The position numbers and the translations under genes were made by a program. A stretch of 46,600 bases of DNA, taken from an uncultured Nitrospira sp. (lineage in GTDB: Bacteria; Nitrospirota; Nitrospiria; Nitrospirales; Nitrospiraceae). Below, in pieces: positions 20,925 to 31,593 of the stretch. The DNA lies in NCBI GenBank assembly GCA_902500755.1, contig CABVRV010000005.1, forward strand, positions 1 to 46,600. Reading direction: 5' to 3'. The notes beneath the pieces are model-generated. The model had not been told where the DNA came from and made no database searches. It saw only the letters and a list, made by a program, of their open reading frames with translations. Numbering within the stretch: the stretch's first letter is position 1; every line of letters begins with the position of its first letter.

Positions 20925-21377
20925 GGTCTTTCCTCCTACACAGAACAGTCGTTGTCGAGTGCTTGCGGCCGTATGTATATGCGCGCGCCAACATCTAGAT
21001 TCGCAGTGTTTCGACTCAGTGGCTTGAGATTGAGCAGTCGGGCAATCGCCGCGTCCAGCTTACGACAGCAGCGTAGAATGAACCGTTCAAGCAAGCGACT
21101 GGTCGAAACCCTTGCTGGGGCAAATAGTTCCCGTTTAATTTTCGATGTGAACCGTCCAACGATGGTTTGGTTGTGCCCGGCGTGGGAAAGATTAATCAGG
21201 CGAGCTAGTAGTTACTCTAGGTGTGCCCTGTCTGATGATGCGATAGAGCTGTTGCGGGCACGGGCAATGTGCGTCGCTCAAACAAGGTGTCCATGGCGCA
21301 AACAGGACGCCTCGTGGACGATGTGATCGTCGAGTTTGGAGGAACGTGTCCGACGAGTCCGATGGAGCGGTGAGTCG
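20925..21377. other. Divergent intergenic region between tkt and the SulP gene
   Basis: About 450 bases separate the divergent transketolase and SulP-carbonic anhydrase genes. Frames on both strands translate to low-complexity, Arg/Ser-rich peptides with no family resemblance, so I see no gene. Promoters for tkt-nuo and for the transporter should lie here. No box is convincing enough to mark. Confidence 0.4.
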
Positions 21378-21398
21378 ATGAACCGACAATGGTTCTAA
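21378..21398 (+). CDS. Possible hexapeptide leader frame upstream of SulP gene
   Basis: ATG at 21378 opens a six-codon frame (MNRQWF) ending in TAA, six bases before the ATG of the transporter gene. GGAGCGG lies 6-10 bases upstream of this short frame, whereas the transporter ATG itself has no recognisable ribosome site. Translation of the leader could therefore load ribosomes for the downstream gene by re-initiation. This is an inference from spacing only; chance is equally possible. Confidence 0.2.
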   Translation: MNRQWF

Positions 21399-21404
21399 AA
21401 CCCG

Positions 21405-23654
21405 ATGAACACAAATATGAAATATCTAGATGATCTTAAGGCCGGCGTCATCGTTTTCATTGTAGCCCTTCCGTTGTGCCTCGGAATTGCGCTTGCGTCG
21501 GACGCTCCGCTGCTTTCTGGATTGTTAGCGGGCATCGTCGGCGGCATTCTGGTGGGGTTAATCAGCGGATCGCACATAAGTGTCAGCGGTCCGGGCGCTT
21601 CCTTGACGGCCGTTGTGGCGGCTGAGATACATGCCCTCGGGTCGTTCTCTGCGTTCCTGCTGGCCGTGCTTCTCGCCGGAATGATCCAAATCGGGTTGGG
21701 TGTGGTCCAGGCCGGGTCCCTCGCCGCCTTCTTTCCGACCAGCCTGATTAAGGGGTTAATGGCCGCCATCGGGTTGATCCTGATTCTCAAGCAAATCCCC
21801 CACCTCTTTGGACATGATCTCGATCCCGAGGGAAATTTGGCTTTTCATCAGATCGACGATCAGAACACGTTCTCTGAACTTTTGGGTCTCACCGGGGGTA
21901 TCGAACCAGGGGCATCCGTCATCGGCCTCGTGTCGTTGGCCTTGCTCATTGTCTGGAGCAAGTGGCCGCCGCTCAAAAATTCATTCATCCCGGCCCCCAT
22001 GGCCGTGGTCCTGGTGGGCATCGGAGCCGGGTTTTGGTTTGAACACCTTGGCGAACCGTGGCTGATTGAGCCACGCCACCTCGTTCAGGTGCCGGCTACA
22101 GAGAACGTGGGCGAGTTGTTCGACCTCTTCCGGACACCTGATTTTTCTCAATGGGCGAATCCGGCAATCTATACAGCCGCCGTGACCATCGCGATGGTGG
22201 CCTCTCTGTCATCATTACTCAACTTAATGGCAGCAGACAGAATCGATTCACAGCAACGCACCTCTCCACCCAGTAGAGAACTGGTGGCTCAAGGTATCGG
22301 GAACGTGACCTGTGGGCTGATCGGCGGAATTCCAGTCATTTCAGAAATCGTCCGCAGTTCTGTGAACGTGGATACCGGCGGGAAGACAAAAGTTGCCACG
22401 ATCGTTCATGGTCTCCTGTTGTTGATCAGCGTCCCGCTCATCCCCACGTGGCTGAACATGATCCCATTGTCCTGTCTGGCGGCAATTCTGATCTACACCG
22501 GCGCCAAACTGGTAACCCCTTCACTGGTAAAACAAATGTGGTTCGAAGGGTACAATCAGTTTCTACCGTTCGCAACGACCGTCGTTGCCATCGTCTTCAC
22601 CGATCCACTGATCGGTTCCTTGATCGGCTTGGCCGTGAGCATCGGGTTCATCCTCCACAGCAACTTACGCAATCCCATGCGCCGATACACAGAAAAACAT
22701 CTTGGCAATGACGTGGTACATGTTGAATTGCCCAACCAGATAACTTTTCTAAATCGCGCCGCCCTCTCCACCGCGTTGGCCGAGATTCCCCGCAATGGGC
22801 ATGTCTTGCTTGACGCTCAAAGCACAGACTACATCGATCCGGATGTGTTCGGTTTGATTCGTGAGTTCAAAGAACGATCAGGACCGGCACGTGGTATTAA
22901 GGTGAGCCTTCTGGGATTCCAGAATAAGTACGATTTACGGGATCGGCTTCGCTATGCGGAGTACTCGACCCCTGAGCTCCAAGCGTCGCTTACTCCCCAG
23001 CAGGTCTTAACCATTCTGAAGGACGGCCACCAGAGATTCCGTACCGGTCAGAGGCTGACCCGCGATTGGAGTCGTCAGATCCGCGCCTCGGCCAAAGGGC
23101 AACATCCCCTCGCCGTGGTACTGAGTTGCATCGATTCCCGAACGCCCGCTGAGTTGATCCTAGACCTTGGGTTGGGTGACATCTTCAGTGTCCGCATTGC
23201 CGGGAATGTGGCGACTCCGGACGTGCTGGCCAGTGCCGAGTACGGGTGCGCGGTCGCGCAAGCCAAGTTGATTCTGGTGTTAGGCCACACACGGTGCGGT
23301 GCCGTGACTACCGCTGTACAACTCAACGGCTCACCCCGAACGGTTGCCGAGGCGACAGGATGTGAACATCTCGATCACATTATCCACACCATTCAGCAAT
23401 CGGCCATCCCGGCGTCTCATAGTACGGACGACCCACGGCCGGCCTCGGAGACGGACCAGCTTGTCGACACGGTCTCCCGCCATAATGTGTTGCAGGTGAC
23501 GACAGTCCTTCGCGAGAAGAGCCGTACGCTCGCCGACCTCATCGGGGAGGGTCGAGTGGCTGTCGTCGGCGCGATATATGATGTCGTGACGGGAGAGATC
23601 GAGTTTTTTGAAAATGACATGCCTACCTCTGGGAGCCGGCAGCCAGAGCAGTAG
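21405..23654 (+). CDS. SulP family transporter fused to beta-carbonic anhydrase
   Basis: A 749-residue fusion. Residues 1-420 form a SulP/SLC26-type anion transporter of about twelve membrane segments (VALPLCLGIALASDAPLLSGLLAGIVGG near the start; SGPGASLTAVVAAEI in the substrate region). A short STAS-like or linker part follows (about 440-520, HVLLDAQSTDYIDPDVFGLIREF). From about 530 to 735 lies a beta-carbonic anhydrase. Its zinc ligands are C575, H628 and C631 (CIDSR and HTRC), and the D577-R579 dyad is intact, so catalysis is likely. The enzyme interconverts CO2 and bicarbonate beside the transporter, which fits bicarbonate uptake or supply for carboxylases. The substrate could also be sulfate. 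The start is uncertain (an ATG four codons later also exists). Confidence 0.92.
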   Translation: MNTNMKYLDDLKAGVIVFIVALPLCLGIALASDAPLLSGLLAGIVGGILVGLISGSHISVSGPGASLTAVVAAEIHALGSFSAFLLAVLLAGMIQIGLGVVQAGSLAAFFPTSLIKGLMAAIGLILILKQIPHLFGHDLDPEGNLAFHQIDDQNTFSELLGLTGGIEPGASVIGLVSLALLIVWSKWPPLKNSFIPAPMAVVLVGIGAGFWFEHLGEPWLIEPRHLVQVPATENVGELFDLFRTPDFSQWANPAIYTAAVTIAMVASLSSLLNLMAADRIDSQQRTSPPSRELVAQGIGNVTCGLIGGIPVISEIVRSSVNVDTGGKTKVATIVHGLLLLISVPLIPTWLNMIPLSCLAAILIYTGAKLVTPSLVKQMWFEGYNQFLPFATTVVAIVFTDPLIGSLIGLAVSIGFILHSNLRNPMRRYTEKHLGNDVVHVELPNQITFLNRAALSTALAEIPRNGHVLLDAQSTDYIDPDVFGLIREFKERSGPARGIKVSLLGFQNKYDLRDRLRYAEYSTPELQASLTPQQVLTILKDGHQRFRTGQRLTRDWSRQIRASAKGQHPLAVVLSCIDSRTPAELILDLGLGDIFSVRIAGNVATPDVLASAEYGCAVAQAKLILVLGHTRCGAVTTAVQLNGSPRTVAEATGCEHLDHIIHTIQQSAIPASHSTDDPRPASETDQLVDTVSRHNVLQVTTVLREKSRTLADLIGEGRVAVVGAIYDVVTGEIEFFENDMPTSGSRQPEQ

Positions 23655-23812
23655 GCCTTGGAGTTTGTGCATGACTGGACGACGATATAAATCAGATTGC
23701 GGACATACCTAGGGAAAGTGCGCGTTACGATGCACAGTTCCTTAGAGCAGACTGAGAGCCTTGGGAACGTGTAAGTCTCAAGCCATAATCATCATTGATC
23801 GGAGGTAGTTTT

Positions 23813-24280
23813 ATGAAACAGATATATGCCTGTCTATTCTATCTATGTGGCGTAGTTGTCGTCTCGTTTGCGGGAGCGGCCTCAGCCGAGAGATTGTCTG
23901 TTGGATTAGGGGTGAGTGAGCGCCACGGACTCCATCAAGATTGGTTCGAGCGAAATCGGTTTCTCTACAAGGTGGATGAGAGCGGTATCCCCGACAGTTA
24001 TGGTGATATGCATGATCCTGATCTTACGCCTCCATTCCAGCGCGGGCCATTCCAACCGTCCGGGAATGATGGGAATGACGACTTAAACTCGTCCGAAAAT
24101 GGAGGCAACCGGACGATGACCCCCTCCGCCGATGTGCCGGACAGTGTGCACGGTTACTCAGGGGGTCTAAAGACTTGGCCTGGCGCGAGACCAGGTTCAG
24201 AAGGTGATCCGAGTGTGAGGGAACTAGGCAGTAGTGGCCTTTCAGAACCGGGTGGTCCTCCTGGTTCCTTGGGAAGATAG
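23813..24280 (+). CDS. Small exported protein of unknown function
   Basis: A 155-residue protein with a clear signal peptide, MKQIYACLFYLCGVVVVSFAGAASAE, with a likely cut after ASA. The mature part has an N-terminal segment with GLGVSERHGLHQDWFERNRFLYKVDESGIPDSYGD and then a long region rich in Gly, Pro, Ser and Asn. That region looks disordered. No family is recognised. ATG is preceded by GGAGGTAGTTTT, a strong ribosome site, so it is probably expressed. It lies 158 bases after the SulP gene and may be read from its own promoter. Confidence 0.7.
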   Translation: MKQIYACLFYLCGVVVVSFAGAASAERLSVGLGVSERHGLHQDWFERNRFLYKVDESGIPDSYGDMHDPDLTPPFQRGPFQPSGNDGNDDLNSSENGGNRTMTPSADVPDSVHGYSGGLKTWPGARPGSEGDPSVRELGSSGLSEPGGPPGSLGR

Positions 24281-24293
24281 AAAGGTCTTTCAT

Positions 24294-24333
24294 CAACCCA
24301 CCGGCCGTAGATGAAAAGACTGTCGGTGGGTTG
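24294..24333 (+). terminator. Hairpin after the exported-protein gene
   Basis: Arms CAACCCACCG (24294-24303) and CGGTGGGTTG (24324-24333) are perfectly complementary around a 20-base loop, 14 bases after the stop of the exported-protein gene. There is no downstream T-run, so it may be a terminator, a processing site or an RNA-stability element. Confidence 0.4.
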
Positions 24334-24651
24334 TAGTGGATGTTCATCTCAGGAGATATCGAGTGTAGGTCTCGAGTTATCTCGCTCAATTGGCTTTCGC
24401 CGTTTCTGAGCCGTTTGTGATCGGTACGCGAATGTCCATCAGGGCATGAACTTAGGTTTCCCAAAAGACTAAATATCTGCTTGCAGCCAGACCTCACAGC
24501 CATGACACGCGACCTTGGATCGGAATGGTCGTCTATAAAGAGATCAAAGACATCCGGCTAGGGGTTGCACCAGGTTTGATCGGCGATAGGAGCTGGTAGA
24601 CCGTAGACATACATCTTACTTGTCTTCATGTACATGTAAAGGAGGGGGCCC
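24334..24651. other. Intergenic region before the first Slp gene
   Basis: About 320 bases without a recognisable gene. It ends in a strong ribosome site (AAAGGAGGGGGCCC) for the Slp lipoprotein gene. The 8-base palindrome TACATGTA at 24631-24638 lies just upstream of that site, and a related palindrome sits before the DUF1328 gene. Confidence 0.4.
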
Positions 24652-25209
24652 ATGAATGTATTGATCATCTCGATGCTGTCGGTCGTGATTCTGTTCGTCA
24701 GCGGATGTAATCGGAAGGACGTCATCCCGGAACGGCTCGAAGGGAAGGTCGATCGCGATCTGCGATATTCCGATATCAAACACGATCCCCTAGCAAAAAA
24801 AGGAAAACTGATGCTGGCGGGCGGCAAAGTGCTGGCAGCCGAACGCGTGAAAGATGGCACGCGAATCGAAGTACTGCAGATCCCGTTGTCCGAAGATCTG
24901 ATGCCGACGGGTCGCGAAACCGAGTCGAAGGGACGATTCGTGGTCATCGACCGTGATGGTCAGGTGTCTGATCCGGCCGTCTTCGACGATGAAAACAAAC
25001 GCATCACGGTGGTGGGGGAAGTGGTGGGATCCACAACCATTACCATCGACGAGACGCAACAACGGGTTCCTCAGCTGGCTCTCAAGCATGTCACGGTCTG
25101 GGATTGGGATCGCGTGAAAAGCGGGTATACCCCGTATTACGGCTACGGTTATCCCCGTGCCTGGGGAGGGGCCTATGGAGGCTATTATGGCTATCCCTAC
25201 TATTGGTAG
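24652..25209 (+). CDS. Slp family outer membrane lipoprotein, copy 1
   Basis: A 185-residue protein with a lipoprotein signal peptide (lipobox FVSGC, Cys19) and the fold pattern of the Slp/YeaY starvation-inducible outer membrane lipoproteins. The pattern is seen in MLAGGKVLAAERVKDGTRIEVLQIPL, GRFVVIDRDGQVSDPAVF and ITVVGEVVGSTTITI. The tail after about residue 157 is rich in Tyr, Gly and Pro and ends in YYW. Its core (24742-25147) is base-for-base identical to copy 2, while the signal peptide and tail differ. It sits 125 bases before copy 2 and likely in the same operon as the RND pump genes. Function of the family is not well known; membership in an envelope-stress or metal-export unit is inferred from context. 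Confidence 0.85.
   Translation: MNVLIISMLSVVILFVSGCNRKDVIPERLEGKVDRDLRYSDIKHDPLAKKGKLMLAGGKVLAAERVKDGTRIEVLQIPLSEDLMPTGRETESKGRFVVIDRDGQVSDPAVFDDENKRITVVGEVVGSTTITIDETQQRVPQLALKHVTVWDWDRVKSGYTPYYGYGYPRAWGGAYGGYYGYPYYW
24742..25147 (+). repeat. 406-base direct repeat, copy 1 of 2
   Basis: Every base matches 25422-25827 (offset 680) when read side by side. It covers most of the first Slp gene's mature domain. Flanks diverge sharply at both ends. Confidence 0.95.
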
Positions 25210-25334
25210 AAGCGTTTTGTTGAAAACTGGATGAGCGCCAGGCGATTGAGCGGTGGTAGGCACTTCAGCCATACCTTGATGACGATCAACGTAACCGACA
25301 GCTATGGAGCGCAGGCAAGAAAGGATGGTGTTCC

Positions 25335-25883
25335 ATGAATATCCTGATGATGGTCATGTCTGGCTTAGTGCTGTTTACCGGCGGATGTGCTCGGGAAGAT
25401 ATTGTTCCGGATCGGTTGGAGGGGAAGGTCGATCGCGATCTGCGATATTCCGATATCAAACACGATCCCCTAGCAAAAAAAGGAAAACTGATGCTGGCGG
25501 GCGGCAAAGTGCTGGCAGCCGAACGCGTGAAAGATGGCACGCGAATCGAAGTACTGCAGATCCCGTTGTCCGAAGATCTGATGCCGACGGGTCGCGAAAC
25601 CGAGTCGAAGGGACGATTCGTGGTCATCGACCGTGATGGTCAGGTGTCTGATCCGGCCGTCTTCGACGATGAAAACAAACGCATCACGGTGGTGGGGGAA
25701 GTGGTGGGATCCACAACCATTACCATCGACGAGACGCAACAACGGGTTCCTCAGCTGGCTCTCAAGCATGTCACGGTCTGGGATTGGGATCGCGTGAAAA
25801 GCGGGTATACCCCGTATTACGGCTACGCCTATCCGTATCGTTGGGGATATCGGGGCTACTATGGTTATCCCCTTTATTGGTAG
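25335..25883 (+). CDS. Slp family outer membrane lipoprotein, copy 2
   Basis: A 182-residue paralog of the preceding gene with a different lipoprotein signal (lipobox FTGGC). The middle 135 residues are identical to copy 1. The Tyr/Gly-rich tail differs (YGYAYPYRWGYRGYYGYPLYW). ATG follows GGATGG at moderate spacing. The stop lies 24 bases before the outer membrane channel gene, so it is almost certainly cotranscribed with the RND efflux genes. As an outer membrane lipoprotein it could work beside or on the efflux channel; this is inference. The Tyr-rich tail might contact metal or peptidoglycan, but nothing proves this. Confidence 0.87.
   Translation: MNILMMVMSGLVLFTGGCAREDIVPDRLEGKVDRDLRYSDIKHDPLAKKGKLMLAGGKVLAAERVKDGTRIEVLQIPLSEDLMPTGRETESKGRFVVIDRDGQVSDPAVFDDENKRITVVGEVVGSTTITIDETQQRVPQLALKHVTVWDWDRVKSGYTPYYGYAYPYRWGYRGYYGYPLYW
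25422..25827 (+). repeat. 406-base direct repeat, copy 2 of 2
   Basis: Identical to 24742-25147. It covers most of the second Slp gene's mature domain. A perfect match including third codon positions points to very recent duplication or gene conversion. Confidence 0.95.
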
Positions 25884-25907
25884 AAACGCTCGGTCGGAAG
25901 GTCTGTC

Positions 25908-27221
25908 ATGACGATGTTAGGATGGACTCTTCTTACGCCAATCAAAACTATGGCGCTCGTGCTCATGCCGCTGCTCATCGCTGGGACAGGCCGGCCGTCC
26001 GATGCGCAGGATGAGGAACGTTCGTATGTGTTGCCGGAAGTCATTGGGTTGGCCATTGATCACAACCCGAGGCCGGCCGGCGCCATCGGCGTGATCGATA
26101 TACAGGAAGGATTGCTTGTCCAGGCCGGCGCTTATCCAAATCCAAGTGTCACGGGCCGTGGCGGCCGTGGCTCGCTCCGTGATGAAGGTGCCTTTGTGCC
26201 TGGCACTGTCAGTCAGCTTCCGCCCGCTGATGTGACCGAATACAACGCCCTATTCTCTCAACCCCTGGAGTGGCCGCTGAAACGAGAGGCGCGGAAGAAT
26301 GCCGCGCAGGCCGGTCTGGAAGGGGCCATTGTCGGGTATGATGAAACCCTGCTCCATCTGCGGGCCGATGTGAAGTTGGCTTTTTGGACCCTCCTCTCTA
26401 CGCAGCAAAGCTTAAAACTGGCCAAAGAAAATTTGGCGATCATCCAAGATATCAGACAGACCGTCGATCGACGAGTCAAGCTCGGAGAGACTCCGCGATT
26501 CGAAGCGATTAAGGCCGAGGTGGAAGTCCTCAAAGCGGAACAGCGAGTCACTCGGGAAGAGAACCATGTCGAAGTCAGCCGCGTCGTGCTCGATACTCTC
26601 ACGGCCGGATCGCTGGGCCTTCGCTATAGGATCGATGGTGAGTTCGAGCGGTTACCCCCGGCGCTCGAACGAAATCAGTTGGTTGAAGACGCGCTTCAGC
26701 AACACCCCACGATTCGCCGTCTGCGTAAGGTGATCGAAGAGTCCGGCAGGACGCTGGATTTTGAGCGTCAAGCTCGTGTCCCGAACCTGACCGTGATAGG
26801 AGGCTACTGGCGTGAACTCGGACGTGAGGCGGTGCATGGAGGTATCAGCGTGCCTCTCCCCATCTGGTACCAACGGCAAGGAGAGATTGCTTCCGCCCTG
26901 GGTACCATCCGGCGAGAAGAAGCCAATCTGCTCCGTGTCCGGTATGACTTCGTTCGGCAAGTAAATCAGCATTTCAAAGATGCCGGCACGGCGGAGCGCC
27001 TGGTCGGGGTGTTTGAAAAAGGCCTGCTGCGTAAAACTCAAGTTGCGCTGCAAATGGCGCAGTTCAGTTTTAAACGAGGGGAAAGCAGTTTGCTTCAAGT
27101 GCTGGACGCTCAACGAGTTCATCGTGAAATCATGCTGGATTACTGGCAGGCCCGCCAGGATCTTTCCATTGCGACGACTCAGTTGGAGCGGTTCGTCGGC
27201 CGGAGTCTGTATGTTCGATAA
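25908..27221 (+). CDS. TolC/CusC-like outer membrane efflux protein
   Basis: A 437-residue outer membrane channel of the heavy-metal RND type (CzcC/CusC class). The N-terminus has a hydrophobic signal region (MALVLMPLLIAGTG, cut near SDAQ). Two long alpha-hairpin repeats are visible: residues about 120-220 (YDETLLHLRADVKLAFWTLLSTQQSLKLAKENLAIIQ) and about 330-430 (LGTIRREEANLLRVRYDFVRQVNQHF, RGESSLLQVLDAQRVHREIMLDYWQA). They form the periplasmic tunnel. Ribosome site GGAAGGTCTGTC precedes the ATG. It lies 24 bases after Slp copy 2 and upstream of the adaptor and pump. Confidence 0.9.
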   Translation: MTMLGWTLLTPIKTMALVLMPLLIAGTGRPSDAQDEERSYVLPEVIGLAIDHNPRPAGAIGVIDIQEGLLVQAGAYPNPSVTGRGGRGSLRDEGAFVPGTVSQLPPADVTEYNALFSQPLEWPLKREARKNAAQAGLEGAIVGYDETLLHLRADVKLAFWTLLSTQQSLKLAKENLAIIQDIRQTVDRRVKLGETPRFEAIKAEVEVLKAEQRVTREENHVEVSRVVLDTLTAGSLGLRYRIDGEFERLPPALERNQLVEDALQQHPTIRRLRKVIEESGRTLDFERQARVPNLTVIGGYWRELGREAVHGGISVPLPIWYQRQGEIASALGTIRREEANLLRVRYDFVRQVNQHFKDAGTAERLVGVFEKGLLRKTQVALQMAQFSFKRGESSLLQVLDAQRVHREIMLDYWQARQDLSIATTQLERFVGRSLYVR

Positions 27222-27258
27222 AGAGGATCGAGGCCGGTATTCGTCGCCTGGATCTTCC

Positions 27259-28467
27259 ATGAATCAGCTACCGTGCAGGGTAACAAAGAAGCCGTACCGT
27301 CTTATCGTTCTCCTCACCATGGTGAGCCTTGCCTACGGGTGTGACGCCGGATCAAACGATACGTCCGCCGAGACATCCAAAAAGGCGGCGAAGGAAGAGG
27401 CCCTCAAGACCGTCAGCCTCGACGAAAAAGCGATGGCGGAGAGGGGAATCACCGTCGAACCGGTCAAGCGCCAACCCTTTCGCAGCTATCGCGATTTTCC
27501 AGGCACCGTCGAATTGAACGAACGCAAGACGGCGAATCTCACAACGCTGGTCCGCGGGCGTGCGATCGAAGTGTACGCGGACCTTGGGCAGGAGGTGACA
27601 CAGGGGACCTTGCTCGCCACGCTGGAGAGTCGAGAATTCGGAGATGCTCAGTCGGCCTATCTCAAAGCGAAAGCCACATTGTACGTGGTCGCCCGCGCGT
27701 ACGAGCGTGCGCAGGCGTTATTAAAAGAAGAAATCATTTCCGTGGCCGAGGGACAAAGACGCGAGGGCGACATGGTCCGCGCGCAAGCCGAACTGCGGGA
27801 ATCGCACCAACATCTTCGGCTCATGGGCATGAGCGATGAGCAGATCAAAGAGCTTGCTCAAAGCCGATCCATCCACCCCCGCATCTACATCACAGCGCCG
27901 TTCCATGGGTTCGTCATTGCGCGCAACATCGTGGTCGGCGAGGTCGTGGAAGTGACCGAAACCATGTTTGTGGTGGCCGACCTGTCGGAAGTGTGGGTAT
28001 TCGCGAACATTCCCGAAAAGGACATTTCGTTCGTTCTGAATTCCGAGCGAACGGACGGCCGCCAGATCGGCGAGTTGCTCCTCCACGCCTATCCGGACGA
28101 GGTCTTTCACGGCACGGTGACCTACATCGGCGCTGTCTTGGATGTGGCCACTAGGACGATGGACCTCCGCCTCGAATTGCCGAATCCGGACCTGAAATTG
28201 AAACCCGACATGTACGCGACCATTCGGATGTATTCTAGCCCGACGAACGATGCGCTCACCGTCCCGGAAAACACAATTCAACGCGATGGGGACAGGCGCT
28301 TCGTGTTCGTGCGGCGCGATTCCGGGACGTTCGAAGCTCGGGACGTCAAGTTGGGAGACTCCAACGGAAAAGAGGTCATGATCATCGGCGGCCTTCGTGA
28401 AGGAGAACCGGTCGTGACGAACGGCGGATTCACTTTGAAGTCTGAGTTAATGGGCGAAGAGTTATAA
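27259..28467 (+). CDS. RND efflux periplasmic adaptor (CusB/CzcB-like)
   Basis: Membrane-fusion protein that links the inner membrane pump to the outer membrane channel; 402 residues. An N-terminal signal with a possible lipobox (LAYGC) is followed by a Thr/Ser/Lys-rich linker. The barrel-sandwich motif TLVRGRAIEVYADLGQEVTQGTLLATLESREF (about 92-125), a helical hairpin, and PRIYITAPFHGFVIARNIVVGEVVEVTETMFVVADLSEVWVFA follow in the family order. Beta-barrel and membrane-proximal parts extend to the C-terminus (LREGEPVVTNGGFTLKSEL). The start is ambiguous: an in-frame ATG at 27211, overlapping the channel gene and following GGAG, would add 16 residues. The signal peptide favours 27259. Confidence 0.9.
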   Translation: MNQLPCRVTKKPYRLIVLLTMVSLAYGCDAGSNDTSAETSKKAAKEEALKTVSLDEKAMAERGITVEPVKRQPFRSYRDFPGTVELNERKTANLTTLVRGRAIEVYADLGQEVTQGTLLATLESREFGDAQSAYLKAKATLYVVARAYERAQALLKEEIISVAEGQRREGDMVRAQAELRESHQHLRLMGMSDEQIKELAQSRSIHPRIYITAPFHGFVIARNIVVGEVVEVTETMFVVADLSEVWVFANIPEKDISFVLNSERTDGRQIGELLLHAYPDEVFHGTVTYIGAVLDVATRTMDLRLELPNPDLKLKPDMYATIRMYSSPTNDALTVPENTIQRDGDRRFVFVRRDSGTFEARDVKLGDSNGKEVMIIGGLREGEPVVTNGGFTLKSELMGEEL

Positions 28468-28470
28468 TAC

Positions 28471-31400
28471 ATGCTCACCAAGCTTCTTGAGTTTTCCCTC
28501 AGGCAACGGATCCTCGTGCTGATTTTTTCCGCAGGGCTGGCTGCCGGAGGGCTCTACACATTCCAGACGATTCCGATCGACGCCTTTCCGGACGTCACCA
28601 CGATTCTGGTACAGGTGGTCACCAAAGCCGAGGGACTGTCGCCCGCGGAAATCGAACGGTTCATCACCTTTCCGCTGGAATTGCAATTGCGGGGCGCTCC
28701 GGGGCTGACGGAAATCCGATCCTTTTCCAAGGTGGGCGCCTCCATCATCACGGCCGTCTTTCGCGATGACATCGATATCTATCTGGCCCGCCAGATCGTC
28801 TTGGAGAGAAGCTTAGAGGTTCAAGCTAGACTGCCCCCCGGCGCGTCCTCGCAGCTGGTGCCGAACTATACCGGTCTGGGAGAGGTGTATCAATTCTACC
28901 TGGAGGGTCCACACGACAGCGAGCCGGACCACCGGATGACCGTCGAGGAATTGACCGAGCGACGAACCTTGGTGGATTGGGTGATTCGCCCCCTGCTCAA
29001 AGGACTGCCGGACGTCGTGGATGTCAATTCGATGGGCGGCTATGTCAAACAATATCAGGTCGTCGTCCATCCGGGCCTCCTCCGCAAATACGACCTCGCC
29101 CTGCATGACGTCTTCGATGCGGTTGCCAAGAACAACGCCAATGCCGGAGGAAGTCTCCTCGAAAAAGAGGAAGAAAAATACATCGTCCGCGGTATTGGGC
29201 TGATTCGCACGCTGAACGATATCGGCAATATCGTCTTGCGCGAAGTCGACGGCACGCCGGTGTACGTGCGGAATGTGGCCGAGGTGCGGTTCGGCCATGC
29301 CGTACGGCATGGCGCGACCGTGCTTAACGGTTCGCGCGAAGTCGTGTCCGGCTTGGTGCTCATGCTGCGCGGCGGCAATGCGCGGGAGGTGGTGCAGGCC
29401 GTCAAGGAGAAAATCGACGAGATCCATGACAAACATATTCTTCCGAACGGTCTGCGCATCGTGCCGTATTATGACCGCATGGAATTGGTCAATGCCGCCT
29501 TGTATACGGTCTACAAGGCGCTCATCGAAGGCATCATTTTCGTCGTGATCGTCCTGTACTTGTTCCTTGGCAGCATTCGCAGCGCCCTGGCCGTGACGAT
29601 CGTGCTCATCGTCGCGCCGCTCTCTACCTTCATCGTAATGCGGTACTACGGGCTGTCGGCCAATTTGATGTCTCTCGGCGGCTTGGCCATCTCGCTGGGC
29701 ATGATTACCGACGCCGCGATCATCCAAGTGGAGAATGTCGCGCGGCATCTGTCGGAAGCCTCGGAGGAAGACCGTGGGTCCGTGGAACGCCGGCTCCCGA
29801 TCGTGCTCAAGGGCGTGGCCGAGGTCCGCGGTCCCAGCCTGTTCGGGGAATTGATCATTGCCCTGACCTTTGTGCCGATACTGGGACTCGTAGGGATGGA
29901 AGGCAAAATGTTCGGTCCGTTGGCTTTGACGATCATGATGGCATTGTTCGTATCTCTCCTGCTGTCCTTTACCCTCTCGCCGGCCTTGTGCTTGTTGTTG
30001 TTGAAAGGCAGCCACCATGGGGATCCGTTCCTCGTTCGATGGGCAAAGAAGGGCTATCGCCCCATGTTGGACTGGGCGTTCGCGCACCGCATCCTTTTGC
30101 TCGGCGTTGCCGGCGCGATGCTGGCCGGCAGTTTGGCCCTGTTTCCATTCCTGGGCGGAGAATTCATTCCAATCCTCAACGAGGTCGCCATCACGCCTCA
30201 AACCATTCGCCATCCGAGCATCTCACTCGAGGAGTCGATACAAATCGAAATGGAAATGCAGCGGGCAGTCATGGAATTTCCCGAGGTCACCAAGGTGCTC
30301 TCAAAGATCGGCCGATCCGAAATCGGCAACGATCCACAGGAGCCGAACGCGAGCGATCCCGTCGTCACGCTGAAGCCGATGGACGAATGGACCACGGCGG
30401 AGACCAAACCGGAGTTGGATCAAGCGGTACGCAAACGCATTGAAAAGATCCCCGGGGCCACGTTCTTGCTGAGCCAGCCCATTCAACAGCGCGTCGATGA
30501 GCTGCTGTCGGGTGTTCGATCGGAGGCCACCGTCAAAGTCTTGGGTGACGATCTGAATGTGCTGCGCAAAACCGCCGAGCAAATTCGCGCCATCATGAGT
30601 GAGGTGCGAGGGGTCGCCGATATCCGCGTCGAGCAACTGTTCGGCCAAGTGTACTTGGCGATCGATATCGATCGCGAGAAGATCGCCCGGCGCGGTATCA
30701 ATGTCGCGCATATCCAAGACATCGTCTCGACGGCGATCGGCATGGAACCGGCCACACAAGTGTATGAAGGCCAAAAACGTTTTGATCTGACGTTGCGCTA
30801 TCCGGAGCCGTTTCGGAACAGCGTCGAGACCATTCGCAATATCCTGCTGCGCGGCACCACCGGCACCCTGATTCCTTTGGGCGACCTCGCGCAGGTTGAA
30901 TTGCGTGAAGGCCCGGCCTTGATCAGTCGGGAGCAATTGCAGCGGCGGATCTACATCGGTTTCAACACGTACGGACGCGACATCGAGAGCATCGTCGCGG
31001 AAGCCCAGAAGAAAATCGACAAAATAAAACTTCCCCCGAACTATCACATCGTCTGGGGCGGGTCATTTGAGAATATGCAGCGGGCAATGGCCCGTTTGAA
31101 GATCATCGTCCCGATCACGATCGGCATCATCTTTCTGTTGCTCTACGTCTCGTTCAATTCATTCCGGTATGCGACCTTAATCATGCTCAATCTGCCGTTG
31201 GCCCTGATCGGGGGCATCGTCGGTCTCTGGGTGACGGGCGAGTATCTGAGTGTGCCCGCCTCCGTGGGCTTTATCAATCTGTTCGGCATCGCGGTGCTGA
31301 ACGGCATTGTGCTGCTGTCGTACATCGCCCAACTGAGAGAGAAGACAGAATCCGCCAAGGAGGCGGCCGTCCAGGGCTCCATGCTGCGTCTGCGCCCCGT

Positions 31401-31593
31401 GCTCATGACCGCCACGGTGGCGCTGCTCGCGCTGACGCCGCTCGCCTTGGCCACAGGCGTAGGATCGGAGGTGCAGCGACCGCTCGCTGTCGTCGTCATC
31501 AGCGGCCTCGTCACCTCGACATTCCTCACGCTGCTGGTCCTGCCCAGCATATTCCCTTGGTTCGAACCGAAACAAAAGAAGAACGCAACATAA
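28471..31593 (+). CDS. Heavy-metal RND efflux pump (CusA/CzcA family)
   Basis: Inner membrane, proton-driven pump of 1040 residues, twelve membrane helices with two large periplasmic loops. The N-terminus RILVLIFSAGLAAGGLYTFQTIPIDAFPDVT is diagnostic for heavy-metal RND proteins. The proton relay on helix 4 reads SLGMITDAAIIQVENV: D414 and E421 match the D/E pair conserved in both CusA and CzcA. The position of the first CzcA aspartate (CzcA D402) is S408, so it resembles CusA (monovalent Cu/Ag) more than CzcA here. Metal specificity cannot be proven; the methionine triad needs an alignment. It begins three bases after the adaptor stop. The nearby Cys-rich protein (40918-41292) also suggests copper handling. 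Confidence 0.93.
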   Translation: MLTKLLEFSLRQRILVLIFSAGLAAGGLYTFQTIPIDAFPDVTTILVQVVTKAEGLSPAEIERFITFPLELQLRGAPGLTEIRSFSKVGASIITAVFRDDIDIYLARQIVLERSLEVQARLPPGASSQLVPNYTGLGEVYQFYLEGPHDSEPDHRMTVEELTERRTLVDWVIRPLLKGLPDVVDVNSMGGYVKQYQVVVHPGLLRKYDLALHDVFDAVAKNNANAGGSLLEKEEEKYIVRGIGLIRTLNDIGNIVLREVDGTPVYVRNVAEVRFGHAVRHGATVLNGSREVVSGLVLMLRGGNAREVVQAVKEKIDEIHDKHILPNGLRIVPYYDRMELVNAALYTVYKALIEGIIFVVIVLYLFLGSIRSALAVTIVLIVAPLSTFIVMRYYGLSANLMSLGGLAISLGMITDAAIIQVENVARHLSEASEEDRGSVERRLPIVLKGVAEVRGPSLFGELIIALTFVPILGLVGMEGKMFGPLALTIMMALFVSLLLSFTLSPALCLLLLKGSHHGDPFLVRWAKKGYRPMLDWAFAHRILLLGVAGAMLAGSLALFPFLGGEFIPILNEVAITPQTIRHPSISLEESIQIEMEMQRAVMEFPEVTKVLSKIGRSEIGNDPQEPNASDPVVTLKPMDEWTTAETKPELDQAVRKRIEKIPGATFLLSQPIQQRVDELLSGVRSEATVKVLGDDLNVLRKTAEQIRAIMSEVRGVADIRVEQLFGQVYLAIDIDREKIARRGINVAHIQDIVSTAIGMEPATQVYEGQKRFDLTLRYPEPFRNSVETIRNILLRGTTGTLIPLGDLAQVELREGPALISREQLQRRIYIGFNTYGRDIESIVAEAQKKIDKIKLPPNYHIVWGGSFENMQRAMARLKIIVPITIGIIFLLLYVSFNSFRYATLIMLNLPLALIGGIVGLWVTGEYLSVPASVGFINLFGIAVLNGIVLLSYIAQLREKTESAKEAAVQGSMLRLRPVLMTATVALLALTPLALATGVGSEVQRPLAVVVISGLVTSTFLTLLVLPSIFPWFEPKQKKNAT

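Follow-up and report, generated by a model that had tools for sequence, protein, structure and literature searches.

Two Slp lipoprotein genes, slp-a and slp-b, lie head to tail in the 46.6-kb stretch of Nitrospira DNA analysed here (the window), with a start-to-start distance of 683 nt. Both ORFs are intact, and both match the Slp profile PF03843 well above its cut-off (E 7.9e-27 and 3.8e-28; 93.9 and 98.2 bits, gathering score 22.5). When the lipobox rule is applied to their signal peptides and the translations are inspected by eye, a putative lipobox cysteine is found in each, within LFVSGC and LFTGGC. The products are presumably outer-membrane lipoproteins with one common domain, as knowledge of the family would predict. 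The features of the locus are as follows, with related genomes given by G numbers; Nitrospira sp. ACE_NIT10 (L033) is also G074.

21405..23654, + strand: SulP-type transporter with a fused carbonic anhydrase; synteny with G059, no counterpart found in the stretch of G061
23816..24280, + strand: upstream ORF "sp", no Pfam match; stands before the single slp in G059, partial matches in G061 and ACE_NIT10
24652..25209, + strand: slp-a, first Slp lipoprotein gene, 185 aa, putative lipobox VSGC (ORF; PF03843)
24652..24741, + strand: private 5' end of slp-a, with signal peptide and lipobox; sides with ACE_NIT10, G059 and G061
24742..25147, + strand: core copy 1, 406 nt, exact match; synonymous differences 0/99.7 sites
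25148..25209, + strand: private 3' end of slp-a, encoding a Gly/Tyr-rich tail; agrees with that of slp-b at 38/53 sites
25210..25334, + strand: unique intergenic spacer from slp-a tail to slp-b start; no match on the repeat diagonal
25335..25883, + strand: slp-b, second Slp lipoprotein gene, 182 aa, putative lipobox TGGC (ORF; PF03843)
25335..25421, + strand: private 5' end of slp-b; joins G003 in the tree (support 98.9/99), with 73/87 sites identical
25422..25827, + strand: core copy 2, 406 nt, exact match
25828..25883, + strand: private 3' end of slp-b, Gly/Tyr-rich tail; compared with the slp-a end
25908..27221, + strand: outer membrane efflux protein; comes after the lone slp of ACE_NIT10, G059 and G061

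Positions 21000-29000 gave no Rfam match at the gathering score, and the idea that the repeat acts in regulation or as an RNA was rejected. Promoter-like sites numbered 2 (shuffled mean 2.2) and terminator-like sites 0 (mean 1.8). Kinship of Slp to a solved structure was likewise set aside, the search having returned a single weak match (E 0.12).

A sequence-only reading had described 406 bases free of mismatches, synonymous sites included, and this description holds in full. Pairwise comparison of 24742-25147 with 25422-25827 gives 406/406 identical bases, the run of identity starting and stopping exactly at these coordinates, and none of 99.7 synonymous sites differs. Within the assembly, a 203-contig draft that is 94% complete, the core occurs twice, both times at this locus; it is also the only direct repeat reported by a scan of the window (20-nt seed, at least 40 nt). 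Over the same stretch, slp-a differs from four relatives at 32 to 58 synonymous sites, with a synonymous divergence of 0.43 to 1.21. These silent positions contradict chance as the cause of the identity. They also bear on the idea that strong purifying selection holds the core identical without any exchange; although the core is indeed the conserved part of the protein, selection of this kind would not account for 0/99.7 synonymous differences beside 32 to 58, and we give it practically no credence. By our own arithmetic (rule of three), synonymous divergence in the core since the exchange is below about 0.03. Among the 204 polymorphic sites counted across six related genes (the window set), slp-a and slp-b agree at 131 consecutive ones, a run reached by 0 of 10000 permutations. 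Trees and permutation tests used 6 genes each, and the donor test 7, out of a 22-gene alignment, from which G001b (in-frame stop, cut short) had been removed beforehand and into which the broken match G010:C19 and the match G018:C1 were not taken. Permutation pairs tried were 8 of 15 in the window set and 11 of 15 in a second set (G016, G024 and G085).

Perfect identity could also arise in the assembly, if two slightly different cores had been merged into one consensus that was then used twice. The draft state of the genome speaks for this, and an exact repeat of 406 bases exceeds usual k-mer lengths. Against it, the slp-a tail runs through the unique spacer into the slp-b start, and the genes outside the pair correspond to those of G059, so that the assembly path does not close without a second core; moreover, the same kind of tract occurs in a single-contig genome, G024. 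We consider such an assembly effect very improbable as an explanation of the locus. The tandem itself is unlikely to be an assembly product, while smoothing of a few small core differences by the assembler is possible. Since smoothing can happen with short reads, perfect identity is claimed less firmly than conversion.

Strongly different flanks, the other half of the sequence-only description, were likewise borne out. In the private coding segments, which are short (87-90 and 53 compared sites), slp-a and slp-b are identical at 56/87 sites at the 5' end and 38/53 at the 3' end, and the comparison of core with flanks that had been called for sets 0/99.7 synonymous sites in the core against a synonymous divergence of 1.14 in the 5' part and 1.25 in the 3' part. 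The 130-nt leaders are no more similar than shuffled sequences (score 18, shuffle maximum 23 in 50 shuffles). In the 5' part, the commonest split comprises 11 two-state sites that separate slp-a, ACE_NIT10, G059 and G061 from slp-b and G003; the 5' tree joins slp-b with G003 (support 98.9/99), and the AU test rejects a tree in which slp-a and slp-b are forced together (p 0.00013). Because their 5' ends have separate kinship, the two genes look older than the core they have in common. Marks of segmental concerted evolution are found here, namely a tract identical at synonymous sites as well, diverged flanks, and segment trees that conflict in AU tests.

For the core, the AU test rejects a tree that places it with G003 (p 0.018); slp-a is thus the likelier donor and slp-b the likelier recipient, on moderate evidence. 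The ACE_NIT10 slp mixes the lineages, its 5' coding end being like that of slp-a, its leader like that of G003 (score 47, shuffle maximum 20) and its core joining G003. It fits no two clean lineages, so the reference genes may themselves be recombined, and the donor assignment is weakened accordingly.

In three relatives, namely G059 (single contig), G061 and ACE_NIT10, this place holds one slp. In G059, the gene is flanked as in the window, by transketolase and the transporter-anhydrase gene on the 5' side and by efflux genes on the 3' side. ACE_NIT10 matches the window on the efflux side and in part of the upstream ORF, where its contig stops; G061 has kept the same parts, and neither transporter nor transketolase was found within the stretch of it that was examined. 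G003 has one slp after the same transketolase, with different genes downstream and a carbonic anhydrase remnant between (115 nt, L036 6006-6120), from which we conclude that the transporter-anhydrase gene was probably lost there. By rpoB, which was found in 10 genomes, G059 is the closest of the eight other genomes compared (95.1%), G001 being excluded from the divergence comparison as its gene is split over two contigs. The efflux operon (25908-31593) is a mosaic: ACE_NIT10 is the nearest relative for its outer membrane gene (86% DNA) and G061 for the genes of the RND protein and the adaptor (91 and 89%), whereas similarity to G059, the closest genome by rpoB, is 67-80%. With neighbouring genes having different nearest relatives, the locus is a mosaic of interspecies exchanges, and slp-b could have come by transfer instead of old tandem duplication.

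The single gene in three relatives, together with the resemblance of the slp-b 5' end to G003, would also suit a single slp that was recently duplicated in tandem and later had its flanks replaced from a relative. This history requires that, in one copy, the leader with the 5' end and the 3' end were replaced independently, with nothing changed between them; both ends exceed 1 in synonymous divergence, and the pairs in G016, G024 and G085, described below, represent an older duplication plus tracts. We therefore hold it to be very unlikely. The sequence-only reading had left the choice between such a duplication and gene conversion, and it is conversion that survives the comparison, the 5' ends being separate lineages with relatives elsewhere. 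Unequal crossing-over is a further route, in which a pair expands to three genes and contracts to two, leaving a hybrid with the common core and an outcome like that of conversion. Copy number does vary at the locus, with one gene in G059, G061 and G074 and two in the window. Two events would be needed, however, and one non-reciprocal event appears to agree better with the unique spacer and with slp-b having both its ends private; we regard crossing-over as unlikely, if less so than the recent duplication.

Among 80 genus genomes searched (the window's own, G000, included), 14 match slp-b at E 1e-50, and a direct tandem of this Slp subfamily is present in five of these 14, namely G000, G016, G024, G085 and G060; drafts may hide more. 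Significant tracts were found in G000, G016 and G024, and none in G085. The G060 pair, on a single contig, is more similar in its middle, the genome set holding no orthologous pair for comparison. Separately, G010 has two slp copies on different contigs (L042 2518-3185, L043 1456-2126) that are 92% alike over 672 nt, with an exact run of 148 nt, in stretches with no further match to each other; they represent either a gene-sized dispersed duplication or a strain mixture.

In G016, G024 and G085, the tandem slp pair occupies one syntenic place, where blocks 4.9 to 6.2 kb long align with 87.5 to 91.5% identity, and adjoins transaldolase- and GAPDH-like ORFs, as judged from translations. The G016 pair has an exact tract of 207 nt that begins 10 nt upstream of the start codon, and the G024 pair one of 98 nt that begins 54 nt within the gene (0/10000 permutations each); G024 being a single contig, a short-read repeat effect is unlikely for its tract. 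In the G085 pair there is no tract, the longest exact run being 18 nt (9981/10000 permutations). The 3' parts track position, with a synonymous divergence of 0.13 for G016a/G085a versus 1.11 for G016a/G016b, and within-genome pairing is rejected for them (AU p 3e-16). A tree of the 5' part that follows position orthology is rejected (AU p 0.0001), and one in which all three genomes pair within themselves is not (AU p 0.126), despite G085 having no tract. Syntenic orthologues of both paralogues are available for these pairs; the relatives of the window pair have one slp each. This independent slp pair is a clearer case of conversion than the window pair. Some runs of agreeing sites lie between genomes (G016a/G085a, 2/10000 permutations; G059/G061 in the window set, 61/10000; G016b/G085b, 221/10000), and these we ascribe to uneven divergence or to transfer rather than to exchange within a genome.

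Arrays of a second Slp subfamily, of 3, 3 and 2 genes, occur in G018, G031 and G012 (L052, L053, L054). There, the body rejects position orthology (AU p 0.014) and the tail fits it, with position groups drawn after the tails had been seen. Permutations over 28 pairs gave at best 17/3000 within a genome and 11/3000 between genomes (G018_0/G031_2), neither significant after correction. These arrays hint at agreement with a broader rule, by which tandem slp arrays across the genus would have their body repeatedly homogenised by conversion and their tails kept position-specific, yielding one lipoprotein domain with several private ends. As a rule for the genus, this is a speculative proposal that we think doubtful.

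For the window pair, we consider it likely that old, diverged slp-a and slp-b had their core homogenised lately by segmental gene conversion, more likely from slp-a into slp-b. The two genes would be diverged tandem paralogues that predate the common core. Recombination between the copies would then have overwritten the central 406 nt of one with those of the other, more probably in the direction of slp-b, by RecA-type gene conversion or by template switching between close direct repeats. The exchange would halt where pairing fails, just past the lipobox region and at the Gly/Tyr-rich tail, so that each gene would retain its own leader, signal peptide and tail. Exchange of this kind has also acted, with different tract boundaries, at the independent slp pair of other Nitrospira species. 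Conversion had been called "ongoing" in the sequence-only reading; this is supported as recurrence within the genus, by the G016 and G024 pairs, and not as continuing in this genome. The further suggestion there, that the cell could vary signal and tail parts by means of swapped ends, finds no support in these data: both ORFs are intact, and the tract ends where the likeness of the copies ceases, as expected from homology limits alone. Antigenic or phase variation by cassette exchange, which would call for silent cassettes, a single expression site and exchange of a variable region, was rejected in view of the intact ORFs, a core present only twice in the assembly, and an exchanged part that is the conserved one.

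Together, three syntenic pairs (two with tracts, one with none) and the window pair offer an example of segmental gene conversion that is clean and open to testing, in a bacterium from the environment, with minimum tract lengths of 98, 207 and 406 nt. Trees of Nitrospira slp genes can mislead if segments are not analysed separately. Among the matches listed for literature naming both Nitrospira and gene conversion, neither term stands in a title or abstract. In the part of the source drawn on, four distinct slp copies are reported in N. marina and four in Leptospirillum, of the same family as slp-a and slp-b, and a term search of its main text found neither "gene conversion" nor "tandem" (PMC7231039). 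A comammox paper, in the portion cited, states that an slp lipoprotein forms a crystalline layer and refers to a review of Slp-coated liposomes (PMC13109103); it seems to confuse Slp with S-layer proteins.

The homA/homB and babA/babB genes are like the slp pair in segmental conversion of paralogues beside diverging segments; the hom and bab proteins contact the host, whereas the slp products are lipoproteins of an environmental nitrifier and have their middle in common. In the hom case, conversion takes place between separate loci. According to the available text of the respective papers, one segment of homA/homB in Helicobacter pylori evolves in concert through intragenomic conversion while another diverges, with segmental concerted evolution of babA/babB cited in the same work (PMC2795765), and conversion between bab loci, which are separate where slp-a and slp-b are tandem, gives chimeric genes (PMC4552749). 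Wang and Chen (2018) described 26 prokaryotic genes with long-lasting concerted evolution, such as tufA/tufB, in which, as in slp, paralogues are closer within a genome than to orthologues, a pattern ascribed to gene conversion; by its own statement that work concerns genes concerted over their full length, whereas slp tracts are partial, and a term search of its main text found no Nitrospira, lipoprotein or slp (PMC6053082, as far as its consulted sections go). The process is thus known as segmental concerted evolution, and what is new is its instance in the little-studied slp family of Nitrospira.
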